This document shows positions 28,404 to 60,700 of a stretch of DNA of 64,000 nucleotides, piece by piece (position 1 is the stretch's first letter; each line of letters opens with the position of its first letter). Both the position numbers and the translations under genes were made by a program. The notes under the pieces were generated by a model. It was not told where the DNA came from and did no database searches. It saw nothing but the letters and a program-made list of their open reading frames with translations. The stretch is from Liolophura sinensis (Eukaryota > Mollusca > Polyplacophora > Chitonida > Chitonidae): assembly GCF_032854445.1 (NCBI RefSeq), contig NW_027017962.1, positions 124,001 through 188,000 on the forward strand, given 5' to 3'.

Positions 28404-31400
28404 GTAAGGCCAGTAAGTAGGTAGGTAATCAGGGTGTCGAGGTAAGACCAGTGAGTTGACAAGTAGGTAGGTAATCAGGATGTTGAGGTATGACCAGTGA
28501 GTTGACCAGTAGGTAGGTAATCAGGGTGTCGAGGTAAGACCAGTGAGTTGACAGGTAGGTAGGTAATCAGGGTGTTGGGGTAAGGCCAGTGAGTTGACAA
28601 GTAGGTAGGTAATCAGGGTGCTGGGGTAAGACCAGTGAGTTGACAAGTAGGCAGGTAATCAGGGTGTCGAGGTAAGACCAGTGAGTTGACAGGTAGGTAG
28701 GTAGTCAGGGTGTTGAGGTAAGACCAGTGAGTTGACAAGTAGGCAGGTAATCAGGGTGTCGAGGTAAGACCAGTGAGTTGACAAGTAGGCAGGTAATCAG
28801 GGTGTCGAGGTAAGACCAGTGAGTTGACAGGTAGGTAGGTAGTCAGGGTGTTGAGGTAAGACCAGTGAGTTGACAAGTAGGCAGGTAATCAGGGTGTCGA
28901 GGTAAGACCAGTGAGTTGACAAGTAGGCAGGTAATCAGGGTGTCGAGGTAAGACCAGTGAGTTGACAGGTAGGTAGGTAGTCAGGGTGTTGAGGTAAGAC
29001 CAGTGAGTTGACAGTCAGCTGTATTAAGTTGAATGATAATTTCCTAGCCCATACTAATTAGTGTTAAGTAACTTACCATAATAGAGGTTTGTATTGGTAC
29101 AGGCTAATCCGGGAACTTTTCGGATGCCTCTTAAATTTGTACTTTTGCTGCCGCTTACCTCCAGCCCCGATTTGACTGCGGCGTTAAGTTAGGAGGTTTT
29201 GTCAGGTTGCCTCCCTGTCCGAGGGCGACGGTATGCTCGGGGTGCTCATGTCTGCTGCACTCATGAACATCTGGCCGCAAAATGACGCGAAAGAACAATC
29301 CAATGAATGCAATAGTCTGCAATTTGTCAATGTATAAATCAGGGAGACGGTCGCGGCTGAATGGTTAAGTTCCTTACCTTTCAATATCTTCGACCTCCGA
29401 GACGTGAGTTCAATTCCATTCTTGGACGGATGCAACCTCCCCCTGGTTCACCTTGTTCTCGGGGTCTTGGGGTAAGAAGCGGTCGATGGGACTGTCTCGG
29501 GTTTAGCATCAAGTCTGGTGGACAGTACTTTCCATCTATCAATATAAAGTACGTCACAGATGAGAATATGCTCTAGTTACTTACGCAAGGCCAATCATTT
29601 CCCCCAGGCACTCCGCATTTGTCCATCAACCAAACTGTCCGCCGTGATTTATGGCACAAGGCAAGATTTAAGTCATACGTTCACATCAGAACGTTGTGTT
29701 AAACATTTTATGTTAGTCGGTAAAATAAACATGTACAGTAATATACATGAAACATTTTCCAGAGATCTGAGGGAATAGATGAAAACATCACCGAGCTGGA
29801 CTTCACCGACCTTCAACAACGACTCCAGGATGGAGCTTTGGACGCAGTAACTGTGCTTCGTGCCTATCAGCAAAAGGTATATACATGTAGAAGAAAGCAA
29901 ATTTGCGTTTTGAAGAAGAGGGTAATTACGATATTGTCAAATAATACACAAAATAGGTAAACCATAACAGTACAATAAATCCGAGGCTGGCATGTGTTAC
30001 ACAGCGAACTTACACACAGACACAAATACATTTACTACTTAAAATAAAAGACTAAAAACCAGAGCACCGGTGAGTGTGGTAGTTTACAAATTGTTCGCAG
30101 GTAACAGGATAGAGATTAAAAACAGACCAGCGAGGACAGTGTGATAACTGGCAAATGGTCACAAGTAACCGGTGAAATACGGCCTCTTGTCAATTTACCT
30201 CAGTTAGGGTTTTATTCTAAATGTTAAAATAGTGGCTCCATGGCTTAAGCAAAATTAGGTAAAAAATATGCAGCGATGTTGATTGCAATATATAATATAT
30301 GTCACTGATCTAGAATTACTGATTACTCTAAATTCTGTATTGTCATAACATTTAATATACAGACACAGTAAGGCAGTTCAAAGGAACCAATGTTGAATTC
30401 TGGGTGACGTGAAGGGCCGTGTTTTTTTACACAGTTTATTTGCAGCTTTAAATGGAATTCGACCTTATTACGACCTACCATGGCGGCACTTGTCCCCTTA
30501 TAGCAGGCCGGTGTCAGTACTACCTCTCCACAGGGACGTCATGACCAGATACGGTGCCGCAAGCAGGGACATTATGCTGACACCTGGCTGATCATCAATG
30601 CTCTCAAGATGAGCGCTTCCACTTCCACATTAACGTTCTGAAAGTAACAACAAAAATGATTGTGTTGATGCCATAGGTTTATGGCGCAGCTGCTGTGTAT
30701 GTTAGAAGAACATTGTCTACTCATTGAAGCCTTTATTTATTTATTTGTTTATTTACGCCGTACTCAAGAATATTTCACATATACGACGGCGGCCAGCATT
30801 ATGGTGGGAGGACACCGGACAGAGCCCGGGGGAAACACATGACCATCCGCAGGCTGCTGGCAGATCTTCCCTGAAGCCATTATATGGTATGAAGTCATAA
30901 TGTCAAGCTCCACTTAGTAAGTTTAATCAACGCTATTTTAAACAAATCGAAAAAAATTCTTTTGTGGTTTATACCTTTTTTCGTTTAAGGGTTTCAATCT
31001 TGCTGTCAGCTCCATAAAACACCAATCAAATGAATAAATAATTTGCTTGGCTTGGCTTTGCGTGGCTCGAACTTCTTTCCGGTAGGTACAAGGTGATAAC
31101 CAACGAGATCATGACGGAATGATGCGGTAGTTCCGTGAACATAACGCAAAGAAGATTTCGTGAAACTTAGCCCTGAATCCGATTTTACGAAACTTTCTTA
31201 GTTTTTTGTTTTAACCATGAGTGTTGCTTAACCAACAATTAAATGGACTATATCCGTATTTTTTTAAATTGCCCATAAGTCCTGTTATAGAAATAATGTT
31301 TTGTAACACAGGCTTTGAGAGTCGACAGAGAGCTGAACTGTATCATAGAGCCTATAGCTGAGGCAGAGGTAAGTATAACAAAATGATCACTAGCCTGTTT

Positions 31401-34400
31401 GTAGGCCTATAGTCAAATATATCTCTACTGTATCGATTGAACAATGTACAGGACAGTGTAAGTTTGGCAGCGTGAGTTATGTGTAAGTTTGGCAGCGTGA
31501 GCTATGTGTAAGTTTGGCATCGTGAGTTATGTGTAAGTTTGGCAGCGTGGGTTATGTGTAAGTTTAGCAGCGTGGGTTACTATAAGTTTGACAGCTTGAG
31601 TTACGTATAAGTTTGGCAGCATGAGTTACGTGTAAGTTTGGCAGCGTGAGTTATGTGTAAGTTTGGCAGCGTGAGTTACGTTTAAGTTTGACAGCTTGAG
31701 TTACGTTTAAGTTTGGCAGCGTGAGTTATGTGTAAGTTTGGCAGCGTGAATTACGTATAAGTTTGGCAGTGTGAGTTACATATCAGTTTGGCAGCGTGAG
31801 TTACGTATAAGTTTGGCAGCGTGAGTTATGTGTAAGTTTGGCAGCGTGAGTTATGTGTAAGTTTGGCAGCGTGAGTTACGTATAAGCTTGGCAGCGTGAG
31901 TTAGGTTTAAGTTTGGCAGCGTAAGTTATGTGTAAGTTTGGCATCGTGAGTTACGTATAAGTGTGGCAGCGTTGGTTATGTGTAATTTTTGCAGCGTGAA
32001 TTATGTGTAAGTTTGGCAGCGTGGTTTATGTGTAAGTTTGGCAGCGTGAGTTGTGTGTAAGTTTGGCAGCGTGAGTTACGTATAAGTTTGGCAGTGTGAG
32101 TTACGCATAAGCTTGGCAGCGTGAGTTTGTCAGGCGTTTCAGTAAAATGTAAAATATTGCGTTTGTCGCCTATTGGTAACGGCACTAATGGTCAACTGTA
32201 TAATATTCTGAGAAATTGGTTTCTTTTGTTTTTTTTTTCCATAAGCATACATGGACAAGTGTTAAACTCATGGTTCCTCGCCAGTAATATTGACTTGTGT
32301 ATTGCACAGGACTGGGCAAGAAATTCTAACCAGGGACCTCTGCACGGCATACCAATCAGCCTAAAGGACTACACACCCATAAAGGTAACTAATTGTTCTC
32401 ATTTTGGTAGAAAAACTTCTGTTGAGTAAACGTTATCGGTCACAGTTTTAAGTAACTTTGGCAGTTTTTGAAAACATTATTGCCGTCATTGTGCATTGGT
32501 GTGTTAATTGATGGAGCCACGAATACAGTGGTCTTTTTTGGGTCACATGATTAAGCGATCAGTCACGGATACATTGGCAGTGATCAAAAAGTACTTGACT
32601 GGTTACTTGATAGAGCAATCAGTCACGGATACATTGCCATTGGTCTTTGGAGGGTTACGTGATAGAGCAGTCAGTCACGGATACATTGCCAGTGGTCTTT
32701 GGAGGGTTACGTGATAGAGCGATCAGTCATGTGTACATTGACAGTGGTCTGTGGTGGGTTACTTGATAGAGCGATCAGTCACGTGTACATTGGCAGTGGT
32801 CTGTGGTGGGTTACTTTATACAGCGATCAGTCACGTGTACATTGGCAGTGGTCTGTGGTGGGTTACTTGATAGAGCAATCAGTCACGTTTACATTGGCAG
32901 TGGTCTTTGGTGGATTACTTGATAGAGCGACCAGTCACGGATAACCTAACGGTGATCTTTGGGGGAGGGAGGGGGGGTGGTGGTTACTTGACAGAGGAAT
33001 GTGGACAGACAGGGTATGAGGCTTGCGAACTTTTCAAATCACCCTGACTCAGCTTGACTCACCCTGACTCAGCTTGACTCACCCTGACTCAGCTTGACTC
33101 TACGTCACACACTCTCTCAACAATCGTTTGTGGTCGATTGATTCAAAATACGTAAAACAGAAAAAATTGCGATAGATGCACATAAATGTACGAAGGCATA
33201 GGTTTATATTAGTGGACTGTGTCTTTGTTGAGTTAGTATAGTATGGTCCTGGTTGCAGTGCTTGGGAAACTATCCACTCAGCTGTTCTAATGTTGTAATT
33301 GCTTGTTTACTTCAGGGGTACGACTTCACCTTAGGTGGCTGTGCCAATTTGCTGGGAATGGCTCACCCGATGGATGCCTCCTTCATTCAGGTACTGCACA
33401 TACGCGAGGAACATATTTGTAATATTTCTCTTTTATAAGGCATACCTGCGCCTTGGGACAAGTCATTAACTTACGATTATCAGTCTTTAGAAGATTCTAT
33501 TTATTATATTCTTATTTATTCATTTATCTCAATGTAAAAGTTTCAGTAACAGCTTGTTCAAAACTATTTATCTAAACTTGGCACTCCAAGTACTTTTTCT
33601 TGATATTTCGAGGTCTCCATAGACAATGTAAAACAGGTAAGGCACGGCAGGGAACTTTGTCAGACAATGTAGAACACGTCTGTTACAGGTTTTGAAGAAA
33701 CAGGGAGCAGTTCCGTTTGTGATTACTAACGCCCCACAGATGCATCTGTCGTAAGTAAAGGGGATGTGATCATAACCAACACGAGAGATCCGTTTGTGAT
33801 TACTAACGCTTCTCTGAAACATTTGTCGTAAGTAAAGGGAATGTGGTGATAACCAACACGAGAGACAAGTTTGTCATTACTAATGCTCCCCTGACACATC
33901 TGTCGTAAGTAAAGGGAATGTGGTGATAACCAACACGAGAGACCCGTTTGTCATTACTAACGCTCCCCTGAAACATTTGTCGTAAGTAAAGGGAATGTGG
34001 TGATAACCAACACGAGAGACCCGTTTGTCATTACTAACGCTCCCCTGAAACATCTGTCGTAAGTAAAGGGAATGTGGTGATAACCAACACGAGAGACCCG
34101 TTTGTCATTACTAACGCTCCCCTGAAACATTTGTCGTAAGTAAAGGGAATGTGGTGATAACCAACACGAGAGATCCATTTGTCATTACTAACGCTCCCCT
34201 GACACATCTGTCGTAAGTAAAGGGAAAGTGGTGATAACCAACACGAGAGACCCGTTTGTCATTACTAACGCTTGTCTGACACATTTGTCGTAAGTAAAGG
34301 GAATGTGGTGATAACCAACACGAGAGATCCATTTGTCATTACTAACGCTTGTCTGACACATTTGTCGTAAGTAAAGGGAATGTGGTGATAACCAACACGA

Positions 34401-37400
34401 GAGACCCGTTTGTCATTACTAACGCTTGTCTGACACATTTGTCGTAAGTAAAGGGAATGTGGTCATAACCATCACGAGAGACCCGTTTGTCATTACTAAC
34501 GAATCTCTGACACATCTGTCGTAAGTAAAGGGAATGTGGTGATAACCAACATGAGAGATCCGTTTGTCATTACTAACGCTTCTCTGACACATCTGTCGTA
34601 AGTAAAGGGAATGTGGTGATAACCAACATGAGAGATCCGTTTGTCATTACTAACGCTTCTCTGACACATCTGTCGTAAGTAAAGGGAATGTGGTGATAAC
34701 CAACACGAGAAACCTGTTGATGATTACTAACGCTTCTCTGACACGTTTGTCGTAAGTAAAGGAAATGTGGTCATAACCATCACGACAGACCCCTTTGTTA
34801 TTACTAACGCTTGTCTGACACATCTGTCGTAAGTAAAGAGAATGTAGTGATAACCAACACGAGAGACCCGTTTGTCATTACTAACGCTCCTCTGACACAT
34901 CTGTCGTCAGTAAAGAGAATGTAGTGATAACCAACACGAGAGACCCGTTTGTCATTACTAACGCTCCTCTGACACATCTGTCGTCAGTAAAGAGAATGTA
35001 GTGATAACCAACACGAGAGACCCGTTTGTCATTACTAACGCTCCCCTGACACATCTGTCGTAAGTAAAGGGAATGTGGTGATAACCAACACGAGAGACCC
35101 GTTTGTCATTACTAACGCTCCCCTGACACATCTGTCGTAAGTGAAGGGAATGTGGTGATAACCAACACGAGAGACCCGTTTGTCATTACTAACGCTCCCC
35201 TGACACATCTGTCGTAAGTAAAGGGAATGTGGTGATAACCAACACGAGAGACCCGTTTGTCATTACTAACGCTCCCCTGACACATCTGTCGTAAGTGAAG
35301 GGAATGTGGTGATAACCAACACGAGAGACCCGTTTGTCATTACTAACGCTCCCCTGACACATCTGTCGTAAGTGAAGGGAATGTGGTGATAACCAACACG
35401 AGAGACCCGTTTGTCATTACTAACGCTCCCCTGACACATCTGTCGTAAGTAAAGGGATTGTGGTGATAACCAACATGAGAGACCCGTTTGTTATTACTAA
35501 CGTTCCGAAGACACGTCTGCCGCAAGGAAACGAACCGTGGTCAGAACTAAAACGAGTGTTCCGTTTTTCATCACTAAGTCCACCAAGTCACCTGTTGTAC
35601 CTAATGAGACTGTGGTCATAACCAAAGAAGCTTTAAGTTTGTCATTGTTAACGCTTCACAGTCAAATGTCGTTAGTACGGGAAGTGAGGTTGAGGAACCA
35701 AAATCAGTGCAGTGGTCTTAGAAAACCACACATTTGGCACAGATGGAACAGACAATTAACATGTCCTTACCTGAGTCAGAAGTGCAGGGCTCTTATTTCA
35801 TTTTCTGACAAGCATTCGGCCATTGTATCAAACAATCAGTGAGTTAATTTGGGATTTGGCTAGTCTATATCGTTTACAGTAGTACACCATATCAGTTACA
35901 TTAGTACACTGTATCAATGACAGTAGTGCATTGTATCAGTTACAGTAGCACACCGTATCAGTTAAAGTAGTACATCGTATCAGTTACAGTAGTACAACGT
36001 ATCAGTTACATTAGTACACTGTATCAGTTACAGTAGTACACTGTATCAGTTACAGTAATACAACGTATCACTTACAGTAGTACAACGTATCAGTTACATT
36101 AGTACACTGTATCAATGACAGTAGTGCATTGTATCAGTTACAGTAGCACACCGTATCAGTTAAAGTAGTGCATCGTATCAGTTACAGGAGTACAACGTAT
36201 TAGTTACATTAGTACATCGTATCAGTTACAGTAGTGCACCATATCAGTTACCGTAATACACCTTCCCCTCGGCCCTCAACACATATCTTATTTTCATCTT
36301 TTCAGGTTTGCCTGCGTTAATCCCCTCTTCGGATACACGGGTAATCCCCATAACCCCGCTAGGACCCCCGGGGGTTCATCCGGTGGAGAAGGAGCTTTGA
36401 TTGGAGGCCACGGATCTATTCTTGGTATAGGTACTGACATGGGAGGAAGTGTCCGGGTACCGGCGGCTTTCTGTGGCACCTGTGCTCTGAAACCCACGCA
36501 TGAGCGCTTTAGGTATGGATGGTGTAACATACGTATATGTGCGGTTATAATCAGCCCGATGCACAAATGTTACAGCAAACTATTTGTAGTGTTTGAGAAG
36601 GAATTGAAATAGACATCTGAATCTTGAAAGCACGCTAGTAAGTATCTTTGTACACTCACTTTTTGAATTTCACGTCCTGTACTTGTTATGCGTGTTGTTT
36701 TTCTCTTTCAGCTATTTGGGATACTTTCCTATCATGCAAACAATAGGTAAGAGCTTGAACGCTTTGGAGTATTTCGACAATTTTGTGTTCTGTTACGGCA
36801 TTGTTGGCTGTTTATGTTAAGTTGTACAAACTGACTAAGCAACAAAACCGGTAGTCCATTTATTCTGTTCGAATCTCACTTCCAGTGTTCATTACTTGTG
36901 TAGAGCTGTTCTATGCTGCACAAAACCGTTAACTTGTTATAATTTTCAACCTTGTAGTTGCCCCGACCACGGGCCCGATGGCTCGAGATGTCACCTCACT
37001 GGTTGCCTTTATGAGGGCCGTCCTTGTCCCAGACTTGTGGACAATAGACCCTACTACCCCACCCATGCCGTTCAGAGAAGAGGTGAGCGGAAAGTCACAA
37101 CCGAAAGTATTTACCCGCGGTTACAAAATATCCAGTTTGATTACATGAGGTCTTTCCTAGTGTTGACAGGTATTTGCCTTTTTCCTTGTTCACCCACAAG
37201 CAGGCCTCTCAACCTTCCAAATTGTCCCTTTAAACAAAAACAAAACACTTAGATTAGGCCTTGCTTTCTTCAGTTAAGATGATGCCAGACACTGTCAAAA
37301 TAGTGACGTAATTTAGATTGGATAAACCGCCGAAATGAAATTTCCTTGATCCGGTTAGTTTTAGTGACACGGTGCCGAGATACGGTGGTGTGATCCGGTT

Positions 37401-40400
37401 AGTTTTAGTGACAAGGTGCCGAGACATGGTGGTGTAATCCGGTTAGTTTTAGTGGATACGGTGCCGAGACACGATGCTGTCATCCGGTTAGCTTTAAGGA
37501 TACGGTGCCAAGACACGGTGTTGTGATCCGGTTAATTTTAGTGATACGGTGCCGAGACACGGTGTTGTGATCCGGTTAGTTTTAGTGACACGGTGCGGAG
37601 ACACACGGTGTTGTTATCGGGGTTGTGTATCTGCGATGACATAACTCATGTTTGTATGATGGTTGTGCAACCCTATACTCAAGAATGTTCATTTATGTGC
37701 ATAGGAACATAAACCATCGACCTTCAACAAGTTACTGATGAACCTTACCACATATATATGTGGCGCAGATATACGCACCATACTGGCTGAAGACATATGA
37801 CCATCAACGAACTTTATTGTTTTACAGTTGTGTTGTATATAAAATATTCACCCATATTGTTGTACTGTTGTGTTGTATATAACATATTCACCCCTATTGT
37901 GGTACAGTTATTTGTATATAACACATACAACCATTTTGTCCCACTGTTTTGTATATGATGTATACATTCATAATGTTGTACCGTCAGTGATTGAAGCCAA
38001 GGTGTTAGCACGCCAGCGCAGAGTAATGACCCAGGAGCCTCTTACCAATGTGATCGCTGTGAGTTCAAGTCCAGTTCATGCTGGCTTACTTTCCGGCGTA
38101 AGTGGGAAGGTTTTTTTGCAGGAAACTGCGGATCATCGTGGGTTCTGCCCGGTTTCCTCCCACCATAATGCTGGTCACCGTGGTATAAGTGAAATATTCT
38201 TGAGTACGGGGTCAAACTCCAATCAAATAAATAAATAAATAAATAAATAAATAAAGCCATGTTTCTCAGATTGTATGAAACTAGAAAACTTTTGTACATT
38301 TGTCCCAGATTTACACCACACACAAGCCATTACGAATTGGGTATTATAAAGACGATGGTTATGTGCCGTGTATTCCAGCGTATCATCGGGCAATCGATCT
38401 GGTCAGAGAGGTCCTGGAGAAACAAGGTCACACGGTATGTACATGTACATGTATGGCATGTCGTCCAGATGTAAGTGTACATGTATGGCATGGCGTCCAG
38501 ATGTAAGTGTACGTGTATGGTATGGCGTCCAGATGTAAGTGTACATGTATGGCATGGCGTCCAGATGTATGTGTACATGCATGGTGTGGCGTCCAGATGA
38601 AAGTGTACATGTATGGCATGGCGTCCAGATGTAAGTATACATGTATGGCATGGCGTCCAGATGTAAGTGTACATGTATGGCATGGCGTCCAGATGTAAGT
38701 GTACATGTATGGCATGTCGTCCAGATGTAAGTGTACATGTATGGCATGGCGTCCAGATGTAAGTGTACATGTATGACATGGCGTCCAGTTGTAAGTGTAC
38801 ATGTATGGCATGTCGTCCAGATGTATGTGTACATGTATGGCATGCCGTCCAGATGTAAGTGCACATGTATGGCATGGTGTCCAAATGTAAGTGTACATGT
38901 ATTGCATGTCGTCCAGATGTAAGTGTACATGTATGGCATGGCGTCCAGATGTAAGTGTACATGTATGGCATGGCGTCCAGATGTAAGTGTACATGTATGG
39001 CATGGCGTCCAAATGTAAGTCCTGATCTCAAGTCTGAAGCATATTAATGACAAATCAAATTTGCCGATCTTCTCAGATCAGCCTCTCTCCTGATCGCCCT
39101 CGTTCTCCTGATCGCCCTCATTCCCCTGATCGCCCTCATTCCCCTGATCGCCCTCATACCCCTGATCGCCCTCATTCTCCTGATCGCCCTCATTCCCCTG
39201 ATCGCCCTCATTCCCCTGATCGCCCTCGTTCCCCTGATCGCCCTCATCCCCCTGATCGCCCTCATCCCCCTGATCGCCCTCATTCCCTTGATCGCCCTTA
39301 TTCCTCTGATCGCCCTCATTCCCCTGATCGCCCTCATCCCCCTGATCGCCCTCATTCCCCGTCTCCCCTGTCCCTCGAACAGCCTTTTCCCCGATCAACA
39401 TCTTCTCAATCACCATGTCCCCCGATCATCTTGTGCCCCGATCTCCCTGTCCACGGTTACCTTGTCCCCCGATCACCTCCCGACCACCTTCTGCCCCCCA
39501 AAACACCTGATCGCCCTCTCTACCTGCTCGCCCTCTCCACCTCATCGCCACTTCCGCCTGATCGACCTGTAAAAACCGATCGCCTTCACCACCTGATGGC
39601 CCGCTCGACCTGATGGCCCTCTCCACCTGATAATCCTCTTCACCTGGTTGCCCCCTCCACCTGATCGCCCTGTCCACCTGATTGCCCTCTCTACCTGATC
39701 ACTCTCTCCACTTGATCGCTCTCTCCGCTCAATCGCCGTCTCCACCTCCTCGCCCTCTACACCTGATCGCCCTTTCCACCTGATGGCCTTCACCCGTTGG
39801 CCATCTCAACCTGATCGTCCTCTCCACTTGATCGCCCTCTCCACCAAATCGCCATCTCCACCTGATCACCATATCCACCGCCAAACCAGAACTCACTCCC
39901 CAAGCGCTCTGCCCGCCCTCTCCGCTCTATCGCCTTCCGTCCTATAACCCTCCCCACTATAACCCTCCCCCGATTTCCCTGTTCCCCGATTTCCCTGTTC
40001 CCTGATTGGTTTTCCTCATGGACTTGTACATCTCCATGCTTCAGCTGGTGCCCTTCCAAGTGCCGGATGTGAAGTATGCCATAGAAGACGTGGGACTACG
40101 TGCTATTTTAGGGGATGGAGCGGAATTTATGAAGCTTATATTGTGAGTTTAATATGAGGATACAGTAGTCTTTGCGAACAGTTGTAAAATTCCAGACTTA
40201 TATATTGATAAATTTTGCAACATTGGCCACCAATTACCGATTGACAGTTATTGTTATAACAGATATTATTATCCGCTATTAATTGTGTGCTAAATACGTT
40301 TTACGTAAGCCTGTGTGAAAAAGACGGCTTGGTAAACCATTGAGAACTTCACAGAAATCATTACGATTTCTAATTGCCAGAACAGGGGATGAGGTGAGCC

Positions 40401-46136: not shown

Positions 46137-46142
46137 AATAAA
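46137..46142 (+). terminator. candidate polyadenylation signal of FAAH
   Basis: AATAAA about 245 nt after the FAAH stop codon at 45893. It is the first clear one downstream. Confidence 0.5.
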
Positions 46143-46483: not shown

Positions 46484-46738
46484 ATATAGAGATGTGTGAA
46501 TACGCTCGCCGCATGGATCTTGACACGAGCTAATTCAAGCCCACAAATATAGAGATGTGTGAATACGCTCGCCGCATGGATCTTGACACGAGCTAATTCA
46601 AGCCCACAAATATAGAGATGTGTGAATACGCTCGCCGCATGGATCTTGACACGAGCTATTTCAAGCCCACAAATATAGAGATGTGTGAATACGCTCGTCG
46701 CATGGATCTTGACACGAGCTATTTCAAGCCCACAAATA
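46484..46738. repeat. 63-bp array
   Basis: Four almost identical copies of a unit with ATAGAGATGTGTGAATACGC and CGCATGGATCTTGACACGAG, in the FAAH 3' flank. Confidence 0.93.
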
Positions 46739-48890
46739 TGGCTGTAACATCACTGATACCCTTCGTTTCACCACAGACCACTGTAAAATCTGATTAAATC
46801 CATTTTACTCGATTGGAAACATTCTGAAAAAAAGAAATCAGAATATTTTCTTGTACACTTTTAATTGGTCTTTCATCTGATGTACACTTCGTTTTGGTGT
46901 TTTCTTTGCCTTAAAGGTATAACATCTAACATACATGGGGCTTAGTAGAATATTGTGACAATACGGATGCATGTAATTCCATTTTCTTAAATATTAATAC
47001 ATGCATAGATCTATAACTACATGTATTTTGATTTAATTTGAATTATACGGTCATTTATTTTCTTGTTGTTTAATGATATACTCAAGAATAGTATATACTA
47101 GTAAAGTGCCATGGGAGGGGAGGCGGGGGCGTCAATGTAAGGAATGGATATAAACCACTGACCTTTGGGAAGTTCACAACGGAATTTCTTTCGAGTAACT
47201 TTAGGATGTACGCCTTTTTCGTGGAAGACAAAGTGGTCTGAACAAACGTAAAACTATTGTTGTTCAGTCCCAAATCGAGTCATACCTCAGACCCTAACAC
47301 AGGTGACCTTGGCACTGCCTTATATGACTTATTTGTATAGTTGATTGGTGTTTTACGCCGTACTCAAGAATATTTCATTTATACGACGGCGGCCAGCATT
47401 ATGGTAGGAGAAAACCAGGTAGAGCCCGTGTGAAACCCACGACCATCTGCAGGCTGCTGAAGATCTTCCACGTATGGCCGGAGAGGAAACTAGCAGAGTG
47501 CCTTTATTTTACGTTAAACATAAAAGAACAGACCGAGTACTGACCAGCACAGTGTCCGTATGGTATGTGACAGGGTGGGACGTCATGTCTTGGACATGGC
47601 GTTCCAGTGAGGCAATGGATCTGGCCTGATACAAGGACATATACGGTCGTGATATTGCCGAAAAAGTAATTTAAAGCGATTAAAACCCCTATCAAACAAG
47701 AACACCCGTGGTGTTCACTTTGTTGTCATAAAGGGCTGCACAATGAGAGCAAGGGGATCTAGAAGTGTCCTGTCCACGGCCGGGCGATGAAACTCACGCC
47801 TCCTGGTTGAACTAAACGCCTAACTTGTATTCCTCTTTTCACTGACAGTGGTCACGTACATGGGGCCCTATATTATTTCTTTATTTCTAAGTGTATTTGC
47901 ATGTCTGGAAGGTAACCGCTAGGGTAGGCCTATTGTGGCAGGCCTATTGTGGTAGTGGTACATGCATATTTCAGTCGCTCACCCGCAACTCTCCTACATG
48001 TCATACGTTTCTGAAGCAAAAATATCATGCAAAATGGCGATGTTTATGCGACTTAAGAATTAAGCTGATTGCTTTAATTACCACACCCAGATACCTGCAT
48101 GGGGGTCCAGTCCCCCACACTTTCCTCAAAACACCACAAAGAAGCCATGGCCCGCTACATCAGTTTATTTCATCATCAGTAGTAATGCTGTAGATACGAC
48201 TGGTATATCTATACACAATTTCAGAGTTCACTTCAAATCTGTATTTCACCGAAGTAATATGGAATATTAAACAATTCATGAACATCGAGACGACTATGAA
48301 TCCTCATCTACAACCTGTAGTCTGAATGACAACTTATGATTATGACTATACCTACACAAGAACTTACCCACACACGTACTTACTATATGCTATGTCTCTG
48401 GAATATACATCCCATAAATGATTTACTATCAGATGTATGTTTTATCATTACCATATACTAGTATAAGTTTAACCATGATGCAGTCCACATGTAAAGGTCA
48501 ACAAGTAGATATATCTGTCTGACAAACTCAGTTCACATCCAAGTATATCATTTACACTACCTTTACTTGAAAAGGTTACCATAAAATGAGATGAACCTTC
48601 AAACTAATAATACACGACAGTATACAGAGCAGTATTGTAGACTACGATGGAGTTCGTAGGTTTGAACATAGCAGGAATATTACTTTTCAAACACACATGT
48701 ATTGTATGTATTAAAGTAGAAGTTGCTATGAATCACATTACCCATGTACCTGGTCAGACATGAACATATATCCAGCCAAGCCCTCATGCATGGTGAAAAC
48801 CCCTTAAGTCTACATCAGGGAACTCCACGATCTCTACACTCAGCTATACAGGGCGAGCATTAACAAAAAGCATAGATATACAGGAATACA
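46739..48890. other. intergenic region between FAAH and ACSS2
   Basis: AT-rich, containing one truncated SINE (47336-47497). No exon is recognised. The short ORFs at 47504-47695 and 47891-48193 show no family resemblance. Confidence 0.45.
47336..47497 (-). mobile_element. truncated tRNA-derived SINE
   Basis: Tail and body of the 16055-type family (GATTGGTGTTTTACGCCGTA, CGACGGCGGCCAGCATTATG, CACGTATGGCCGGAGAGGAA). The tRNA-like head is missing. Confidence 0.8.
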
Positions 48891-48894
48891 GGAC

Positions 48895-49330
48895 CATTCT
48901 ACTTAACTATAGGCATATTCTACTTAAATACAGGATCATTCTACTTAACTATAGGCATATTCTACTTAAACACAGGACCATTCTACTTAACTATAGGTAT
49001 TCTACTCAACTACACCATTTCCTTTAACTACAGGAGCATTCTATTTAACTATATAGGTGCATTCTATTTAACCACAGGAGCATTCTATTTAACTAAACAG
49101 GAGCATTCTATTTAACCACAGGAGCATTCTATTTAACTAAATAGGAGCATTCTATTTGACCACAGGAGCATTCTATTTAACTAAATAAGAGCATTCTATT
49201 TAACTAAATAAGAGCATTCTATTTAACTAAATAAGAGCATTCTATTTAACTAAATAAGAGCATTCTATTTAACCACAAGAGCATTCTATTTAACTATATA
49301 GGAGAATTCTAGCCAAATACAGGAGCATTT
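48895..49330. repeat. ~24-bp array, GAGCATTCTATTTAACTA type
   Basis: About 17 variable units built on GGAGCATTCTATTTAACTA with ACAGG or AATAAG linkers. It lies 3' of ACSS2 and may be transcribed in its 3' UTR. Confidence 0.88.
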
Positions 49331-49568
49331 TAGCAATCAGTAACAGCATTCCACATATTTTTTGGCTTCACTGTAGCGCACCATAACTCAGAGTTCACCA
49401 CTGCCAAAATAGTAGTCAGTTTCATGGGCTGAGGACATCTGAGCATCTTGGGTTGACGACCAATCTTTCACCGGCTACTGCCAGGCAATCCCATATTGTC
49501 AGTTGTTGTGGTGTGGAAGGATGGTAAACCTGCCAAAACTGCCCAACTAGCCCTATTGACATCTTACT

Positions 49569-50056
49569 GTCAAACTATTATAGTGGACACTAAATGGTAA
49601 TGAGGATTTCACTTATTGTCAAACTATTATAGTGGACACTAAATGATAATGAGGATTTCACTTATTGTCAAACTATGATAGTGGACACTAAATGATAATG
49701 AGGATTTCACTTATTGTCAAACTATGATAGTGGACACTAAATGATAATGAGGATTTCACTTATTGTCAAACTATGATAGTGGACACTAAGTGATAATGAG
49801 GATTTCACTTATTGTCAAACTATTATAGTGGACACTAAATGATAATGAGGATTTCACTTATTGTCAAACTATTATAGTGGACACTAAATGATAATGAGGA
49901 TTTCACTTATTGTCAAACTATTATAGTGGACACTAAATGATAATGAGGATTTCACTTATTGTCAAACTATGATAGTGGACACTAAATGATAATGAGGATT
50001 TCACTTATTGTCAAACTATGATAGTGGACACTAAATGATAATGAGGATTTCACTTG
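49569..50056. repeat. 49-bp array
   Basis: About ten nearly identical copies of a unit with GTCAAACTATTATAGTGGAC and ACTAAATGATAATGAGGATT. Confidence 0.95.
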
Positions 50057-50109
50057 ACAAAGTCAAGCTTTTCACTAATAATTACAGGAATATTTCAAGT
50101 TCAACATAC

Positions 50110-50460
50110 AAGTATTTTACCTCATTACATCTATAAGAATTCTGCCTCATTACATCTATAAGAATTGTACCTCCTTACATCTAAAAGAATTCTGCCTCAT
50201 TACATCTATAAGAATTCTACCTCATTACATCTATAAGAATTCTATCTCATTACATCTATAAGAATTCTACCTCATTACATCTATAAGAATTCTACTCATT
50301 ACATCTATAAGAATTCTACCTCATTATATCTATAAGAATTCTACCTCATTACATCTATAAGAATTCTGCCTCATTACATCTATAAGAATTCTATCTCATT
50401 ACATCTATAAGAATTCTACCTCATTACATCTATAAGAATTCTGCCTCATTACATCCATCA
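50110..50460. repeat. 25-bp array
   Basis: About 13-14 copies of CTCATTACATCTATAAGAAT plus TCTAC/TCTGC. It is followed to about 50610 by a few units of GGAGCATTCCATGTAACTAC. Confidence 0.93.
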
Positions 50461-51567
50461 GGACATTTTATTTCATCATGTGAGCATTCCAGTTTGCTAC
50501 AGCAGCATTCTACAGGAGCATTCCATGTGACTACAGGAGCATTCCATGTAACTAAAGGAGCATTCCATGTAGCTACAGGGGCATTCCATGTAACTACATG
50601 GGCATTTCAACTACTGAAGTGCAAAGCATATTTAACACACTGACACACACATATTCAAAGCTGCTGGTAGACTAGCCGACCCACATGGCACTACAATCAA
50701 AGCTGCGGATGCTAGACTAGCCGACTCACATGGCACTACAAGGAGGAGTGGCTTAAGACCGCACAAAGAAAAAAACAAGCCAACTTCGTCACTCAAGGCT
50801 TGGACTAGACAGTCTAGTAAACGAATAGCCTCTAACCCTGACTTGCACAGAAAAATAATATTTGCATGTACTGGTGTCAGACAGTTTTTTGACGTTCTTA
50901 TTAATAGTACGATCTATAAAAAGGAAAATAAAATGTAATAATTTACATGTACATCATATGGCATGGAAAAAACAAACAAGGAAACTTAAAGCCGTCAACA
51001 TTAACATGACCACGCTGGGGGAAGTTATTCTCATGAATGTGAGAACCTCTAACACAGACTTGTATAAACTGTACTCAGTGAATGAAGGAAATTTGATTGC
51101 TGTGGGTCACATCAGTCACATGATAGTTATATGTATACTGTGGAGAGAACATGGTCAAACCCAGAACTGTCATACTGCATGTAGTATGTTGTAATGTTTG
51201 CATATACTGACCTGTCACGGCAAAACATGAATTTGTTAAATTATCTGTGCTCCCAAATGGTGTCATAATGTTTTTTTCTGCATAGATAACACAGAGTTTT
51301 ATATGGTAATCAATGCTGAAATTTCACAGACGTTGAATAATGCTGTTTGATATTAACTGCTAGCTGCCTGATACAACTGTGTACCAGAGAAGTACTGTGC
51401 GTGTATAAAACATGGCAAACCTAGAAAGAAAAAAACCCCACAAAAAAATCAAACCATTAGCTAGATGCTACGTGTGAGTTTGCATCCCAGAGAAGATTTG
51501 AGCTGACATGACCTGCTGGAGGTGTGATGAATGCTACTATCAGCTGAGTGGCGACAGCGGTGTGAAC

Positions 51568-51770
51568 TCAGGACAAGGAACTTGGGCGAAGCTTAAACAA
51601 CGTTTCAATAACTGTTTCATCAGCTAAAGTTGAAATGTCCCCTAGCTCTTTGTTATCTACGGCGATCTTCCGGAGGATTCTCCGCATGATTTTACCTGAT
51701 CGAGTTTTTGGCAATCCTGGTGCATTCTGGATGAAATCCGGCTGAGCGAACGGTCCAATCTTTGTTCTGA
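51568..51770 (-). CDS. ACSS2: ACSS2 last exon
   Basis: [20 protein letters not shown], then [15 protein letters not shown] and a variable tail ending [10 protein letters not shown] with a TGA stop. The SGK lysine corresponds to the acetylation-regulated catalytic lysine known in this family. The acceptor reads TTACAG on the minus strand. Confidence 0.95.
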
Positions 51771-54700
51771 CTGTAAGGAACAGAAAGCAGAACATTTAGA
51801 AGGAAAAAAAGCGTACAGTATTACTCATTATTAAATTCTGTTTGCTTAGACCTTCATTTCAAGGCCAAAACTCTTAATTTACAGTAGGTTTATTTATTTA
51901 ATTGTTGTTGAATGAAATAATTTACAGTAAACACAATTCATGGCAAAAGACAAGGCTCCCCCTATCAGAAGATTTGTCTTTGTGGTTGCTGCCTACATTA
52001 AGATTGCGTCACATGTAAGAACTCTGACTGTCACACAAAGAGACTACAGAATACAATAGTTAATACTTGGACTTCACACAAAATAAATACATACTGTACA
52101 GCTTCAATCACCTTTGCACTCGCAATGTATCCATGTAGAGTCTCACTCACCTCTACATGCACAGTCTCTCACCTCTACATGTACAGTCTCACTCACCTCT
52201 ACATACACAGTCTCACTCACCTCTACATGCACAGTCTCACTCACCTCTACATGCACAGTCTCACTCACCTCTACATGTACAGTCTCACTCACCTCTACAT
52301 GTACAGTCTAACTCACCTCTACATGTACCGTCTCGCTCACCTCTACATGTACAGTCTCGCTCACTTCTAAAGGTACAGTCTTGCTCTACATGTACAGTCT
52401 CACTCACCTCTACATGTAGTCTCACTCACCTCTACATGTACAGTCTCGCTCACCTCTACATGTACAGTCTCACTCAACTCTACATGTACAGTCTCACTCA
52501 ACTCTACATGTACAGTCTCATTCAACTCTACATGTAGTCTCACTCAACTCTACATGTACGCTCTCACTCAACTCTACATGCACAGTCTCACTCACCTCTA
52601 CATGTACAGTCTCACTCACCTCTACATGTACAGTCTCACTAACCTCTACATGTAGTCTCGCTCACCTCTACATGTACGGTCTCACTCACCTCTACATGTA
52701 CGATCTCACTCACCTCTACATGTAGTCTCGCTCACCTCTACATGTAGTCTCGCTCACCCCTACATGTACAGTCTCACTCACCTCTACATGTACAGTCTCG
52801 CTCACCTCTAAAAGTACAGTCTTGCTCACTCACCTCTACATGTATAGTCTCGCTCACCTCTACATGTAGTCTCGCTCACCTCTACATGCACAATCTCGCT
52901 CACCTCTAAAGGTACAGTCTTGCTCACCTCCATATCTTGTCTCACTCACCTTTACATGCAGTCTCACTCACCTCTACATGCACAGTATCACTCACCTCTA
53001 CATACACAGTCTCACTCACCTCTACATGTACAGTCTCACTCACCTCTACATGTTGTCTCACTCACCTCTACATGTACAGTCTCACTCACCTCTAAATGTA
53101 CAGTCTCAATCACCTCTACATGTACAATCTCGCTCACCTCTACATACACAGTCTCACTCACCTCTACATGTACCGTCTCGCTCACCTCTACATGTACAGT
53201 CTCGCTTACCTCTAAAGGTACAGTCTTGCTCACTCACCTCTACATGTACAGTCTCGCTCACCTCTACATGTACAGTCTCGCTCACCTCTACATGTACAAT
53301 CTCGCTCACCTCTAAAGGTACAGTCTCGCTCACCTTCATATCTTGTCTCACTCATCTTTACATGTAGTCTCACTCGCCTCTACATGCAGTCTCACGCACA
53401 TATACATGTACAGTCTCAACTCTACATGTACGGTCTCACTCAACCCTACATGCACAGTCTCACTCACCTCTATATGTAGTCTAACTCACCTCTACATGCA
53501 CAGTCTCACTCACCTCTACATGTAGTCTCACTCAACTCTACATGTACTGTCTCACTCAACTCTACATGCACAGTCTCACTCACCTCTATATGTAGTCTCA
53601 CTCACCTCTACATGCACAGTCTCACTCAACTCAACATGTAGTCTCACTCAACTCTATATGTAGTCTCGCTCACCTCTACATGTACAGTCTCACTCACCTC
53701 TACATACACAGTCTCACTCACCTCTACATGTACAGTCTCACTCACCTCTACATGTACAATCTCACTCACCTCTACATGTACAGTCTCACTCACCTCTACA
53801 TGTAGTCTCACTCACCTCTACATGTAGTCTCGCTCACCTTTACATGTACAGTCTCACTCAACTCTACATGTACAGTCTCACTCAACTCTACATGTAGTCT
53901 CACTCAACTCTACATGTACGGTCTCACTCAACTCTACATGCACAGTCTCACTCACCTCTACATGTACAGTCTCACTCACCTCTACATGCACAGTCTCACT
54001 CACCTCTACATGTAGTCTCACTCAACTCTACATGTACAGTCTCACTCAACTCTACATGCACAGTCTCACTCACCTCTATACATAATCTCACTCACCTCTA
54101 TATGCACAGTCTCACTCACCTCTACATGTAGTCTCACTCAACTCTACATGTACGGTCTCACTCAACTCTACATGCACAGTCTCACTCACCTCTATATGTA
54201 GTCTCACTCACCTCTACATACACAGTCTCACTCACTTCTACATGTACAGTCTCACTCACCTCTACATGTAGTCTCACTCACCTCTACATGTACAGTCTCA
54301 CTCACCTCTACATGTACAGTCTCGGTCACCTCTACATGTACCGTCTAGCTCACCTCTACATGTACAGTCTCGCTTACCTCTAAAGGTACAGTCTTGCTCA
54401 CTCACCTCTACATGTACAGTCTCGCTCACCTCTACATGTACAGTTTCTCTCACCTCTACATGTACAATCTCGCTCACCTCTAAAGGTACAGTCTCGCTCA
54501 CCTCCACATCTTGTCTCACTCATCTTTACATGTAGTCTCACTCAACTCTACATGCACAGTCTCACGCACATCTACATGTACAGTCTCACCTCTACATGCA
54601 CAGTATCACTCACCTCTACATGTACAGTCTTACTCACCTCTACATACACAGTCTCACTCACCTCTAAATGTACAGTCTCACTCACCTCTACATGTACAAT

Positions 54701-57700
54701 CTCGCTCACATCTACATACACAGTCTCACTCACCTTTACATGTACAGTCTCACTCACCTCTACATACACAGTCTCACTCACCTCTAAATGTACGGTTTCA
54801 CTCACCTCTACATGTACAGTCTCACTCACCTCTACATGTACAGTCTCACTCACCTCTACAGTCTCACTCACCTCTACATGTACAGTCTCACTCACCTCTA
54901 CATTCAGTTCAGAAATCATATACAGTCTCACTCACCTTTACACTTCAGTTCAGAAATCAGGTCATTGGTGAATGTCTCCCCCTACACGACAAAAACCATA
55001 AGATACAGGATCAAGTATTATTTAGCTGACTACCACTTGATTAGTTTCATGAAGTCACGTACGTGTTATCACCACAGACATGCTATACTAGTTACCGACA
55101 CATACAAATTGTCTAAGAGCTAAAATGGAACAAGGCCCTGAGCTCAGTGCTATTCTCCATGGCACTGATACAGCACATCACGCAGCTAAACACACAACAA
55201 CAACAAAAAATGTGTGGGAAAGCTGAGTGTTTTTCGTGATGAAAGCACAGCGCATATCAGATGGTGTCTAGAAGGTTTTCTTCACACCTGTGTCTGCTGT
55301 ATACCAAAAACTGAAGCAGGGAAACCCTTGAGCTCCGAGTCACAATCGCAGTAGCTTTAAACCAACAACAATCTGTTATGGCTTACCATAGTAAAGCTGT
55401 TTTCATTGGTCAGTTGGTATTACATAAAATAAGCTTTAAGACAATGTATTAAAATTTGCAGACTTATCCAGCACTGGCAGAGGTTAACCTAAGGTTAAAA
55501 ACCTCTGCATGAGGAGAGTTTGGTGCTTCACACTCACCTGTATTAGGGTGACAAATGCATAGGTACACTCGCCCTTGACGGTATGGGGGTGAGAGACCAC
55601 AGCAGCCTCTGCCACGGCTTCATGCTCTATCAGAGCAGACTCAATCTCTGCTGTGCTCAGTAAGTGACCAGACACATTCACCATGTCATCAATACGTCCG
55701 GTAATCCAGATGTAACCATCCTCATCTCTCTTAGCTCCTGAAGATCACAGACAAAAGAATTTCTCAGTTATCTCATATTTTTGTAATTACAGTGCTGAAA
55801 CAGTGTTTTTGTAATTACAGTACTGAAACAGTGTTTTTGTAATTACAGCACTGAAACAGTGTTTTTGTAATTAGGGTACTGAAACAGTGTTTTTGTAATT
55901 ACAGTACTGAAACAGTGCTACATATAATTTCTTTTCAGAAAGAGAACAGTACTCCAGACTTTCCAAGAGAGAAACTACAAAACTACTGTGTGGGGTTTAT
56001 TTGAATTACTCACTGACAACTTTATATGGCATTTTCAATTTGTTGTGCTTTGATAGCAGCTGCCATTTTGGAGTCAAAACCTGATAAACTCTTGTTGAAA
56101 TGGGCTTATTTTAAATGTACATTAGAAGACAAGGATATTGTGCTTTACCTACTGGGAGTATATAGTATAAACCTGAAGCCTTTCTGTGCATATGTTCCCA
56201 GCTGTTCTCATGATCGTTCTATTCACAGAATTATAAGTACATGTATGTGTCCGAAACTGGGCCCTCGATGATACAACATAGCTGACTTTGCCGATGATTT
56301 GTGAGCAACTGAGATCAGACATTTGGGAGCGACATTAGGATAATTTTGTGATTACAGTAGCAGCACAGGAATTCAAATGACCATTTTTAATCCTCTGCTA
56401 CATATTCTTCATGGCAAACGCCTGAGAATGTCACAAAAGACAAATATCACAGTAGGCATTCTCCAAGACTGGGAGTGGTGGCACGGGAGCTTTTGCAGTA
56501 GCCTACAGTGTCTCAAAATCACATGGTGGAGAACACTTCATATGTAGCAGTGTGTAATTTTTCATGACCTTTTACACAAGATGTTCTTTGCAGATAAAAC
56601 TGTATTTGTTGTTAACCCCTGAAATTGGCTGACCCAATCATTGTATTTATATCTCCAAAATCAAACTGAAAAGTTGCATAAATGACACTGAAAGTTTTTG
56701 TTTTCATATTCAAAATGGTTGATGATTATCTGAAGCAGTGTGTACATTCATTTCACTGTTACAGTGCTTTACTGGTACATATGTAACGTACATGTATGCT
56801 CAACCAACTTGTGGCACTACCTACTACTGCAAAGACAGTCACTGTGAGATTTGCAAACATGGCCAAATATGTACATACCGTCTCCGGTAGTGTAATAGCC
56901 TGCAAACTTTTTGAAGTAGGTGGTTTCAAAGCGTTCATGGTTTCCATACACAGTTCTCATGATACCAGGCCAGGGCTGCTTGAACACCTGAAAGAGGGAG
57001 AATAAACATCTGGAAGTCAGTGCTTTCTGTACAATTTGACCAGCCTACACATACCTATATACTCCCCATGCAGCTACCTGCCTGACTGATCTACTCACCA
57101 GGCGCCCCCTCTAGCTGACTAATCTACTCACCAGGCGTCCCCTCTAGCTGACTGATCTACTCACCAGGCATCTCCTCTAGCTGACTGATCTACTCACCAG
57201 GCGTTCCCTCTAGCTGACCAATCTACTCACCAGGCATCCCCTCTAGCTGACTAACCTACTCATCAGGTATATCCCCTCCATGACCAATCTACCCCAAGTA
57301 TCCGCTCTAGCTGACTGATCTACTCACCAGGCGTCCCCCTCTAGCTGACTGATCTACTCACCAGGCATCCCCTCTAACTGACCAATCTACTCACCAGACA
57401 TCCCCCCTAGCTGACTGATCTACTCACCAGGCGTCCCCTCTAGCTGACTGATCTACTCATCAGGCGTCCCCTCTAACTGACTAATCTACTCACCAGGCAT
57501 CCCCTCTAGCTGACTAACCTACTCATCAGGTATATCCCCTCCATGACTAATCTACCCCAAGTATCCGCTCTAGCTGACTGATCTACTCACCAGGCGTCCC
57601 CTCTAGCTGACCAATCTACTCACCAGGCATCCCCTCTAACTGACCAATCTACTCACCAGACATCCCCTCTAGCTGACTGATCTACTCACCAGGCATCCCC

Positions 57701-60700
57701 TCTAGCTGACTGATCTACTCATCAGGCGTCCCCTTTAGCTGACTGATCTACTCACCAGGCATCCCCTCTAGCTGACTGATCTACTCACCAGGCATCCCCT
57801 CTAGCTAACTGATCTACTCACCAGGCGTTCCCTCTAGCTGATCAATCTACTCACCAGGCATCCCCTCTAGCTGACTGATCTACTCACCAGGCGTCCCCTC
57901 TAGCTGACCAATCTACTCACCAGGTATCCCCTCTAGCTGACTGATCTACTTACCAGGTATCCCCTCTAGCTGACTGATCTACTCCCCAGGCATCCCCTTT
58001 AGCTGACTGATCTACTCACCAGGCGTCCCCTCTAGCTCACCAATCTACTAACCAGGCATCCCCTCTAGCTGACTGATCTACTCACCAGGCGTTCCCTCTA
58101 GCTGATCAATCTACTCACCAGGCATCCCCTCTAGCTGACTGATCTACTCACCAGGCGTCCCCTCTAGCTGACCAATCTACTCACCAGGTATCCCCTCTAG
58201 CTGACTGATCTACTTACCAGGAATCCCCTCTAGCTGACTGATCTACTCACCAGGCATCCCCTTTAGCTGACCAATCTACTCACCAGGTATCCCCTCTAGC
58301 TGACTGATCTACTTACCAGGAATCCCCTCTAGCTGACTGATCTACTCACCAGGCATCCCCTTTAGCTGACTGATCTACTCACCAGGCGTCCCCTCTAGCT
58401 CACCAATCTACTAACCAGGCATCCCCTCTAGCTGACTGATCTACTCACCAGGCATCCCCTCTAGCTGACTGATCTACTCATCAGGTATATCCCCTCCATG
58501 ACTAATCTACACCAGGTATCTGCCATAGCTGACTGATCTACTCACCAGGTGTCCCCTTTAGCTGAATGATCTACTCACCAGGCATACCCTTTAGCTGACT
58601 GATCTACTCACCAGGTATCCCCTTTCACTGACCAATCTACTCACCAGGCATCCCCTCTAGCTGACTTATCTACTCACTCGGTATCCTCTCTTCATGACTG
58701 ATCTACTCAGAAGGTGACCCCTTTAGTTGACTGATCTACTCACCAGGTATCCCCTCTAGCTGACTGATCTACTCACCAGGTATCCCCTCTAGCTGACTGA
58801 CCTACTCACCAGGTATCCCTCTCCAGGCCCTTCAATCTCAGTACCATCATCCTTCAGAATGGCTGGCACAATGCCAAAGAATGGGAATGTCTGATGAACA
58901 GTTAACCACCAGAGACATGATTAACCATTTGTCAGTGACAAATAAATGTAATCATCTTTTCTGATTAAAACAAGAACAGTAATGACGGTTAATATATTTA
59001 CATTACTCTATGTAAAGTTTTCTTGTCTCAATTTCTCAACATCACAAATAGTTATGACTAGGAAGTTGCTAAAGCTTGTTCCGAATCCCATGGTTACATG
59101 AAAAAATGTACAATAAAATATGTTTAATTCAAAGTGTTGTGCATTATATATGTTTCTACACTGCTTCCAAGGCTCACATAAACATGGGTATGTGGGGTGA
59201 AGGCTTGTAGACTTACCGCAGAGCCTGGTTTGGTGGGTGTGGCACCTGGCAATGGTGTGATCACATGTCCACCCTAACAAACATACAAACAGCAGGTGTA
59301 AGTAGCTGTCTCCTAATGTAAGTAATGTCCGTGGAGGAACGTATGTCAAACAGCACCAGTGAAACCATGCAAAACCCCAGCTCAATATATGCTAGATGTT
59401 TTCAGATACATTTACATTCACCTTCACATTCCACTAAGTCATTTTGGATGCTGATGATAACACTTGGAGTGTAACAATAGCTCCCACTGTACTTCATACA
59501 GGCGAAATAAAAATTCAAACATGCAACAAATTTACACATCAATGAGAATGAATTCAGAAAACTCCCTATTGAATGACCTTCAAGACTACATAAGTATCAT
59601 ATGCACGTGAGCCTAGGTTGGTATTTACAACATAGTTCACAATATAGCTCTAACTTGCTTGACAAGCCCTGTATACTTCCCTCAAGCTATGTATAAAATA
59701 GTATCCTCCAGTAAATAACATATACGTCTGTTGGCTAGGTTATCTCCCTTATTTCACTGTGAAATCATAGTCCAGTGTACCTGTACCTTGTTCCTGTACA
59801 TGTAATTTATTTATTTATTTATTTGATGGTATTTTATGCCGTACTCAAGAATATTTCACTTATACAATGGCGGTCAGCATTATGGTGGGTGGAAACCGGC
59901 CAGCCCAGAGGAAACCCACGACCATCCGCAGGTTGCTGACATACCTTCCCACTTATGGCTGTACATGTAAGTCCCCTGTTCTAACAACACAAGGTCCAGT
60001 ACTGACCACCACCATTGCTCTTGTCAATGTTTCATTGGCTGAATTCAAAGTTTAAGCTGCTAGGGAGAGCGCAATCACTTGAGAATTCTCCTGTCAGAAA
60101 AATTGGTGTTCTATGCTAAAATCTATGCTCTGAGAGTGCGCATCATTTAGGTAGGGGAGGCATCACTTCCAGGCTTGATACATGTGAGGGATATACAGGC
60201 CGACGTGAACATGAAGGGCAACACAACTATGACCACCTCACACAATGCAATCAAGGTCGTTTTTCCTTCTTCACGTAGGAAATAATTTCAAATATGAGAG
60301 ATTTTCTGCATCCCGTTCGTAGATACAACAATGTTATCTACACACCTTCAAACATTTCCCATGTTGAAAGAAATTGACCTCATGGTTTCTTACTTTGTTA
60401 CTGCACAGCAGATATGTTTCGTTTTAAGGACAAATATTAGTTCACAAGTGAACACTGGCTGTGATATGTGCTTGACCCTACATGTCGATCAGGTCATGCA
60501 TATGGACTAGTGAAAACACTGACTTTGTTGATGCAATTTGCAGGTGCATGGACAGTCAGTGTTGAATTGATGGGTCTTTTGCAGCATAAATTTGTTACAC
60601 TGATACTCTGTGAAGAAGATACGGAAATATACGGTGTCAGCTGATAACAAATATCAGAGTCACTGCCAAATATCAGTCACTGCCAAATATCAGAGTCACT

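Follow-up and report, generated by a model that had tools for sequence, protein, structure and literature searches.

Minisatellites that copy 5′ splice junctions in genes of the chiton Liolophura sinensis

Here we describe a window of 64,000 nucleotides from the genome of the chiton Liolophura sinensis (contig NW_027017962.1, positions 124,001 to 188,000), in which three genes, SQLE and FAAH on the forward strand and ACSS2 on the reverse strand, carry intronic minisatellites with splice donor motifs in their units. Some of these units copy the exon-intron junction itself, much as do the so-called mirages of amphioxus. The Pfam database confirms SQLE (domain SE) and FAAH (Amidase), and the identities of FAAH and of the acetyl-CoA synthetase (ACSS2) are also matched by solved structures. 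The assembly analysed comprises 609,464,459 bases in 632 contigs; the published one counts 609,495,693 bases, 632 scaffolds and 13 pseudomolecules (PMC11068029), and the species, first published as L. japonica, has since been renamed Liolophura sinensis by its authors (PMC12441733). Throughout, a slash within a motif marks the exon-intron boundary, and positions without a contig name are those of the window.

Junction copies in FAAH and ACSS2

The clearest case is intron 6 of FAAH. Exon 6 (33689-33750, forward strand) is followed by its donor at 33751, and the array that overlaps its end (33713-35577, forward) consists of 24.2 copies of a 77-base unit, in which the last 38 bases of exon 6 are followed by the first part of the intron (GTC/GTAAGT); the exon end ...CACAGATGCATCTGTC/GTAAGTAAAGG is repeated about 24 times. 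Two introns of ACSS2, both read on the reverse strand, present the same organization. In the earlier of them, 52.8 copies of a 33-base unit (57082-58819) reproduce the exon end GGGATACCTG/GTGAGT, the authentic donor lying at 58809, while the last intron, with its authentic donor AAAG/GTGAGT at 54935, holds a 24-base unit in 118 copies (52132-54903). The order of elements in this last intron is the true junction, one longer duplicate of about 40 bases and then the 24-base unit, repeated about 100 times; the longer duplicate looks like the founding step of the array.

The first-pass annotation, made from the letters of the window, had listed a fourth array as a copy of an authentic donor junction, namely that of FAAH intron 1 (46-base unit, 13.0 copies, 28415-29013, forward). 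Beside the putative donor of exon 1 at 28404, its unit carries GAG/GTAAGA, and the copy is weak, with about nine exon bases reproduced imperfectly (GATATTGAG against GGTGTCGAG). Three of the four arrays are therefore clear copies of their junction and the fourth a faint one. The same annotation had set apart three arrays as holding donor motifs without clear exon sequence, and this description stands. The array of FAAH intron 10 (32-base unit, 18.2 copies, 38437-39020, forward) starts at position +3 of the donor at 38435, and neither a copied junction, by the criterion used, nor exon sequence was found in it. On inspection, no exon copy was seen either in FAAH intron 3 (25-base unit, 26.9 copies, 31456-32127, forward), with GTAAGT or GTGAGT within its units, or in SQLE intron 1 (4776-5000, forward), a degenerate 32-base array of 6.8 copies with 72% matches and GTAAG in many units; in both cases donor-like sites were noted upstream of the array. 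All these arrays were recovered by Tandem Repeats Finder, which returned 63 overlapping rows for the window. Inside each window array the units differ by point changes, and the periods of the donor arrays, counting those of the wider sample presented below, range from 24 to 91 bases.

The units that were searched against the whole genome are private to their genes. Two units of FAAH intron 6, three units of FAAH intron 1 and about four units of the 33-base ACSS2 array each found, among the best candidates scored, a match at their own locus only.

The junction nearest to the exon is the one that known proteins point to. Joining FAAH exon 6 at its first donor to exon 7 (36306-36512, forward; acceptor before 36306, probable donor after 36512) keeps the reading frame and gives a gap-free alignment to rat FAAH (1mt5) across the junction, with an E value of 2.5e-34. 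For ACSS2, both first-donor joins likewise give alignments to acetyl-CoA synthetases that run across the junction, one residue being assumed at one of the joins. At three junctions, then, the first donor is collinear with known proteins and is the one needed for the protein; an occasional use of the copies is still compatible with these alignments.

Donors and acceptors beyond the window

The arrays of the window are not isolated cases. A sampling rule was fixed before any sequence was fetched: every stop-free match from genome searches with the myosin head, kinesin and ABC membrane domains was to be taken, with 600 bases on each side. The rule fits 189 matches (62, 90 and 37, respectively), of which 173 were used (49, 89 and 35); the 16 left out (13 myosin, 1 kinesin and 2 ABC, mostly low-scoring) were an unplanned omission, made before the sampled sequence was seen. 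Matches to the AMP-binding domain, which supplied few usable exons, stayed outside the sample. These 173 exons correspond to 140 loci and 212,165 bases, and arrays, 81 once merged, occupy 24.4 kb of them. By eye, copies of the donor junction were recognized at nine loci (L013, L017, L023, L079, L080, L122, L124, L125 and L126), among which L079 has only 2.4 copies and L122 is irregular, while L021 and L081, being doubtful, are not counted among the nine. Copies of the acceptor junction were seen at three (L029, L046 and L047). Some pairs of loci probably share a single array (L126 with L139, L125 with L144 and L081 with L098). This suggests that about 5% of the sampled donor junctions (9 of 173) carry arrays derived from them.

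An automated test, designed together with its thresholds after the arrays had been seen, required 13 matches to a 16-base junction window in at least two further copies. Among confidently placed sites, it recorded 7 of 87 donors against 2 of 152 acceptors (p=0.013); L042, which the inspection by eye did not cover, also passes it. For control windows in the interior of exons, the figures were 2 of 87 and 2 of 152. On the donor side, the repeat cover of 7 of 87 compares with 6 of 87 at +30 in the intron, 10 of 87 at +100 and 15 of 87 at +250. On the acceptor side, intron windows were covered in 9 of 152 cases at -40, 13 of 152 at -100 and 17 of 152 at -250, and the acceptors themselves (2 of 152) fall below -100 (p=0.006) and, less firmly, below -40 (p=0.06). 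Donors thus look as open to repeats as the adjacent intron, and acceptors look spared, like exons.

Two side observations from the sampled loci may be added. Along the acceptor side of the exons (L005-L144), 10 array edges fall in the 60 bases before acceptors and 2 between 60 and 150 bases, as if repeats extended to the polypyrimidine tract and stopped there. At L117, the intron contains a second copy of a piece of the ABC-transporter exon that precedes it, about 100-150 bases past the exon and away from the junction; this duplication may be an early stage of a junction array.

A second line of evidence comes from motif searches of the whole genome, with three AGGTRAGT spaced 10-40 bases apart as the donor pattern and three TTTTNYAGG as the acceptor pattern. 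Among the matches, the 100 listed of 1,599 donor places (first 7 Mb of contig C1) belong to 16 arrays, and the 100 listed of 562 acceptor places (contigs C1 and C2) to 18. Seven of the 16 donor arrays start where an exon ends, the exons having open frames of 54-118 residues; in Pfam, four of these exons match above the cut-off (ankyrin, Branch, SNF2 and Fe-hydrogenase C), one (HEAT, L153) matches below it and two have no match. For L151 and L160 exon status was taken solely from the open frame (for L160 the search was of Pfam only). As to the other donor arrays, L145 and L149 are longer than the stretch read, L157 starts about 100 bases past a donor and six have no recognizable exon. On the 3′ sides of the 18 acceptor arrays, examined by open frame and inspection and in six cases also by Pfam, no copied exon junction was found (0 of 18); the array of L162 ends about 70 bases before a likely exon, and the six Pfam searches gave one match below the cut-off (CATSPERG_C, E 0.021). 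The contrast between donor and acceptor arrays, drawn from different regions of the genome, is 7 of 16 against 0 of 18 (p=0.002). It becomes 7 of 14 against 0 of 18 when only the resolvable donor arrays are counted (p=0.001), 5 of 16 against 0 of 18 with Pfam-matched exons only (p=0.016), and 7 of 16 against 0 of 16 when L175-L177, which share a flank and so are not independent, count once (p=0.007). Chance open frames of 66-98 residues also lie downstream of the acceptor-motif arrays L161, L163, L169 and L173.

In support of the first-pass annotation, junction copies in the sense orientation occur across many other genes, both in the sample and among the arrays of C1. The donor motif follows the orientation of the gene, as had also been claimed. 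In the 77 sampled arrays with a period of at least 9, AGGTRAG occurs 1.32 times per kb in sense and 0 in antisense, compared with 0.18 and 0.08 outside arrays, and the hexamers most enriched in arrays of this sample, which is independent of the window, are TCAGGT and GGTGAG in gene sense. GTRAGT is present in at least half of the copies of seven arrays in sense (probably five independent) and of one in antisense; the reversed control motif TGARTG reaches the same level in eight arrays, so the short motif by itself proves little. When the junction arrays are set aside, two independent introns with sense donors and none with antisense donors are left, and the sense bias thus exists because arrays copy the junction. 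Indeed, copies that lie inside the intron, downstream of the first junction, automatically show their donor motif in the sense of the gene.

Furthermore, the true donor tends to be no weaker than its copies. Donors were scored in 17 arrays, of which 15 had detected copies (FAAH intron 10 gave none and L017 was dropped). In 14 of the 15, no copy outscores the true donor, with assumed scoring weights and with five arrays that came from the search for intact donors, which is biased towards strong copies; splicing at the next copy instead would introduce a stop codon or shift the frame in 13 of the 15, with reading phases assigned from open frames.

Several other features were encountered. On C1, two separate junction-copying arrays lie about 12 kb apart on the minus strand (L152, C1:4179598-4181098; L153, C1:4191814-4193314). 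The SNF2 exon at a donor array has ‘helicase-like protein’ entries as its closest solved structures, which we take to be Mot1/BTAF1, and L152 (SNF2 exon) and L153 (HEAT-like exon) perhaps belong to one BTAF1/Mot1-like gene. At least 100 of the 1,599 matches to the donor pattern fall within the first 7 Mb of C1, which make up about 1% of the genome; this suggests a chromosome end rich in minisatellites. On C2, a 27-base acceptor-like unit, TTTTACAGGCTYGGCTACTGGGTAT..., is found in four arrays (L175-L178) within 120 kb (C2:17.88-18.00 Mb), three of them with a common flank; unlike the private junction units, it recurs locally. In the window, a 76-base array without a donor motif in its unit (61443-64000) runs past the end, and downstream of SQLE, at about 22442-25626 on the forward strand, frames resemble by eye those of a retrotransposon of the long terminal repeat type (zinc knuckle, protease, reverse transcriptase and integrase), the reverse transcriptase being the only domain there confirmed by Pfam. 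Neither tRNA genes nor Rfam families were found in the window. Lastly, the 108,685 bases of contig C99 contain cox1 seven times, about every 15.5 kb, and seem to consist of mitochondrial genomes joined head to tail, of which C632 (15,209 bases) holds a single copy. The mitochondrial genes follow the order cox1-cox2-atp6, then on the other strand nd5-nd4-nd4L-cytb-nd6-nd1, then cox3-nd3-nd2, which is presumably the ancestral mollusc order.

Birth and persistence of the arrays

We consider these arrays to be minisatellites of the mirage type, born by local duplication of a junction and tolerated at donors, since the true site there precedes its copies on the transcript, a reading to which we give a probability of roughly 0.75. 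We infer the mutational step, the actual usage of donors and the reason for the asymmetry between donors and acceptors as follows. A short segment of some 25-90 bases, covering an exon end together with its 5′ splice site, would be duplicated in tandem; the intronic duplicate would then expand and be homogenized as any minisatellite is, by slippage or unequal exchange. The 5′-most junction would stay with the real exon, and the copies would lie downstream inside the intron. Donor arrays would survive since transcription reaches the true donor before its copies, none of which would exceed it in strength. Acceptor copies, in turn, would precede the true site, interfere with it and be removed. 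Birth by local tandem duplication together with tolerance at donors is, we think, the most economical account.

The asymmetry that this account has to explain finds support in some tests but not in all, and the preference for donors over acceptors that the first-pass annotation proposed to test is upheld for the copying of junctions (7 of 87 against 2 of 152; 7 of 16 against 0 of 18) but not for the mere proximity of arrays to exon edges. Several results weigh against the account. In the one statistic fixed beforehand, arrays within 100 bases of a matched exon edge number 17 on the donor side, two of them with a period below 9, and 13 on the acceptor side (p=0.58). The copies recognized by eye, 9 of 173 donors and 3 of 173 acceptors, do not differ significantly (Fisher p=0.14), and the automated test without its thresholds gives 9 of 173 against 2 of 173 (p=0.06). 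In the whole genome the triple donor motif is found 1,599 times against 849 reversed and the triple acceptor motif 562 times against 269, an excess of similar size for both; the single motifs count 18 against 13 and 42 against 20 in 187,763 bases, and the donor excess is small once set against these frequencies, although the triple counts are dominated by long arrays and by base composition and are therefore not decisive. Finally, an estimate of births per base hints that donors may be more than merely tolerated.

This last estimate is the substance of a different view, according to which donors are hotspots of birth, where repair linked to transcription or to the motif would duplicate AG/GTRAGT more often than other sequences. 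If births were spread evenly over the sequence outside arrays and exons, 3.8 arrays at donor junctions would be expected in the sample (1.8 with the smallest period) and 9 are observed (p=0.016), the acceptor-junction arrays numbering 3 against the same 3.8; the calculation was designed post hoc and uses the calls made by eye. As a hint it is only suggestive, and it does not establish the process favouring donors that the first-pass annotation had entertained. Nevertheless, repeats cover donors as often as position +30 and less often than +250, so no more than the nearby intron, and the last 60 bases of exons contain 5 array edges in 10.4 kb, as dense as arrays overall (0.48 per kb), without a clear peak. 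A hotspot appears unlikely to us.

Ordinary minisatellites could also overlap junctions by chance, without any donor preference in birth or in survival, the excess being sampling noise. Arrays are indeed abundant (24 kb of the 212 kb sampled), they abut both sides of exons, and the difference between the counts made by eye is compatible with noise. The automated test and the comparison of donor-motif with acceptor-motif arrays, including its version restricted to Pfam-matched exons, speak against such indifference, and we give chance overlap a low probability.

The first-pass annotation had further suggested selection for, or tolerance of, additional binding sites for U1. Such sites might suppress premature polyadenylation or enhance splicing. 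The columns of the donor motif do vary slightly less than the rest of the unit in ten arrays (p=0.064 with six columns, p=0.028 with eight), a weak effect that fades with the GT columns only (p=0.17). Moreover, copies drift (e.g., GTCAGT in L013 and GTAATG in L080), outside the junction arrays sense donors prevail in most copies of only two introns, with none in antisense, and the reversed motif is as common as the donor motif (8 arrays against 7). Selection of the arrays as U1 sites is very improbable.

Insertion at junctions of a mobile element with a donor motif, for which no supporting point was found, was rejected on the three units searched, which are private to their loci and make a dispersed element unlikely, and its probability is negligible given that the units hold exon sequence of their own gene. 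An assembly artefact, to which the modest coverage (14X HiFi, PMC11068029) and the presence of a mitochondrial concatemer might lend some weight, is just as remote, with units that differ by point changes and a pattern seen on several chromosomes; the copy numbers of the arrays may nonetheless be wrong in the assembly.

Returning to duplication and tolerance, how the spliceosome chooses among equally good donors is an old question, usually approached with built constructs. The chiton arrays offer natural series of near-identical donors, in which the correct one can be read from the protein, and the apparent asymmetry between donors and acceptors is what a co-transcriptional rule would predict. 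A broader picture is tentative, and we lean towards doubting it: mirages would be common in some animal genomes; in this one, thousands of genes might contain series of up to about 100 almost identical 5′ splice sites, with splicing always from the first; a rule by which the first transcribed site wins would have left its trace in the rarity of acceptor arrays; and the arrays would serve as a lasting source of new exons and introns.

Mirages and related boundary repeats

The first-pass annotation knew of no described class of element to which these arrays could belong. Such a class exists. The mirages of amphioxus are minisatellite-like tandem duplications across the exon-intron boundary, with units of 10-160 bases, many of them including AG/GT signals; they are reported not to interfere with regular splicing, and have been described in Adh3 of Branchiostoma, in the globins BflGb6 and BflGb9, in troponin C and in PGBD5 (PMC3087553, PMC3902484). 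The chiton arrays, in the window and in other genes, likewise span the boundary and contain AG/GT splice signals in their units. Their units are gene-specific, a trait that we draw from those reports and that was seen in the three of three units searched in a non-exhaustive way, and their length varies by locus. Furthermore, both the 5′ and the 3′ boundaries are duplicated in the chiton, the latter at the three acceptor loci found by eye.

The two systems also differ. The host is here a mollusc, around 5% of sampled donor junctions are concerned, and donors are apparently favoured over acceptors, whereas the amphioxus reports consulted each deal with one gene and mention either boundary. The Adh3 mirage is known to be unstable, both in length and somatically; the chiton arrays are known from one haplotype.

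Other boundary repeats are more distant. In human segmental duplications, minisatellite units of about 30 bases at exon-intron boundaries alter gene structure (PMC2812944); those internal tandem repeats are identified from the way paralogues differ and have been proposed as a source of new introns, while in the chiton the intron pre-exists. Intron gain by tandem duplication of AGGT, that is, by duplication across a splice-type sequence, has also been reported (PMC4974935). It would yield a new intron; in the chiton, the repeats multiply one boundary of an intron already in place and no new intron was seen.

In the literature searched, which lacked most subscription papers, no case in a mollusc was found, whether the search was on molluscs, on chitons or on boundary repeats of this type, and the accessible parts of a comparative study of chiton genomes do not mention tandem repeats or satellites (PMC12005716). 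The class is thus already known, and its host phylum appears to be new. Mirages are in this way extended from cephalochordates to molluscs, and comparisons among chitons would open the study both of their origin and of their proposed role in intron gain.

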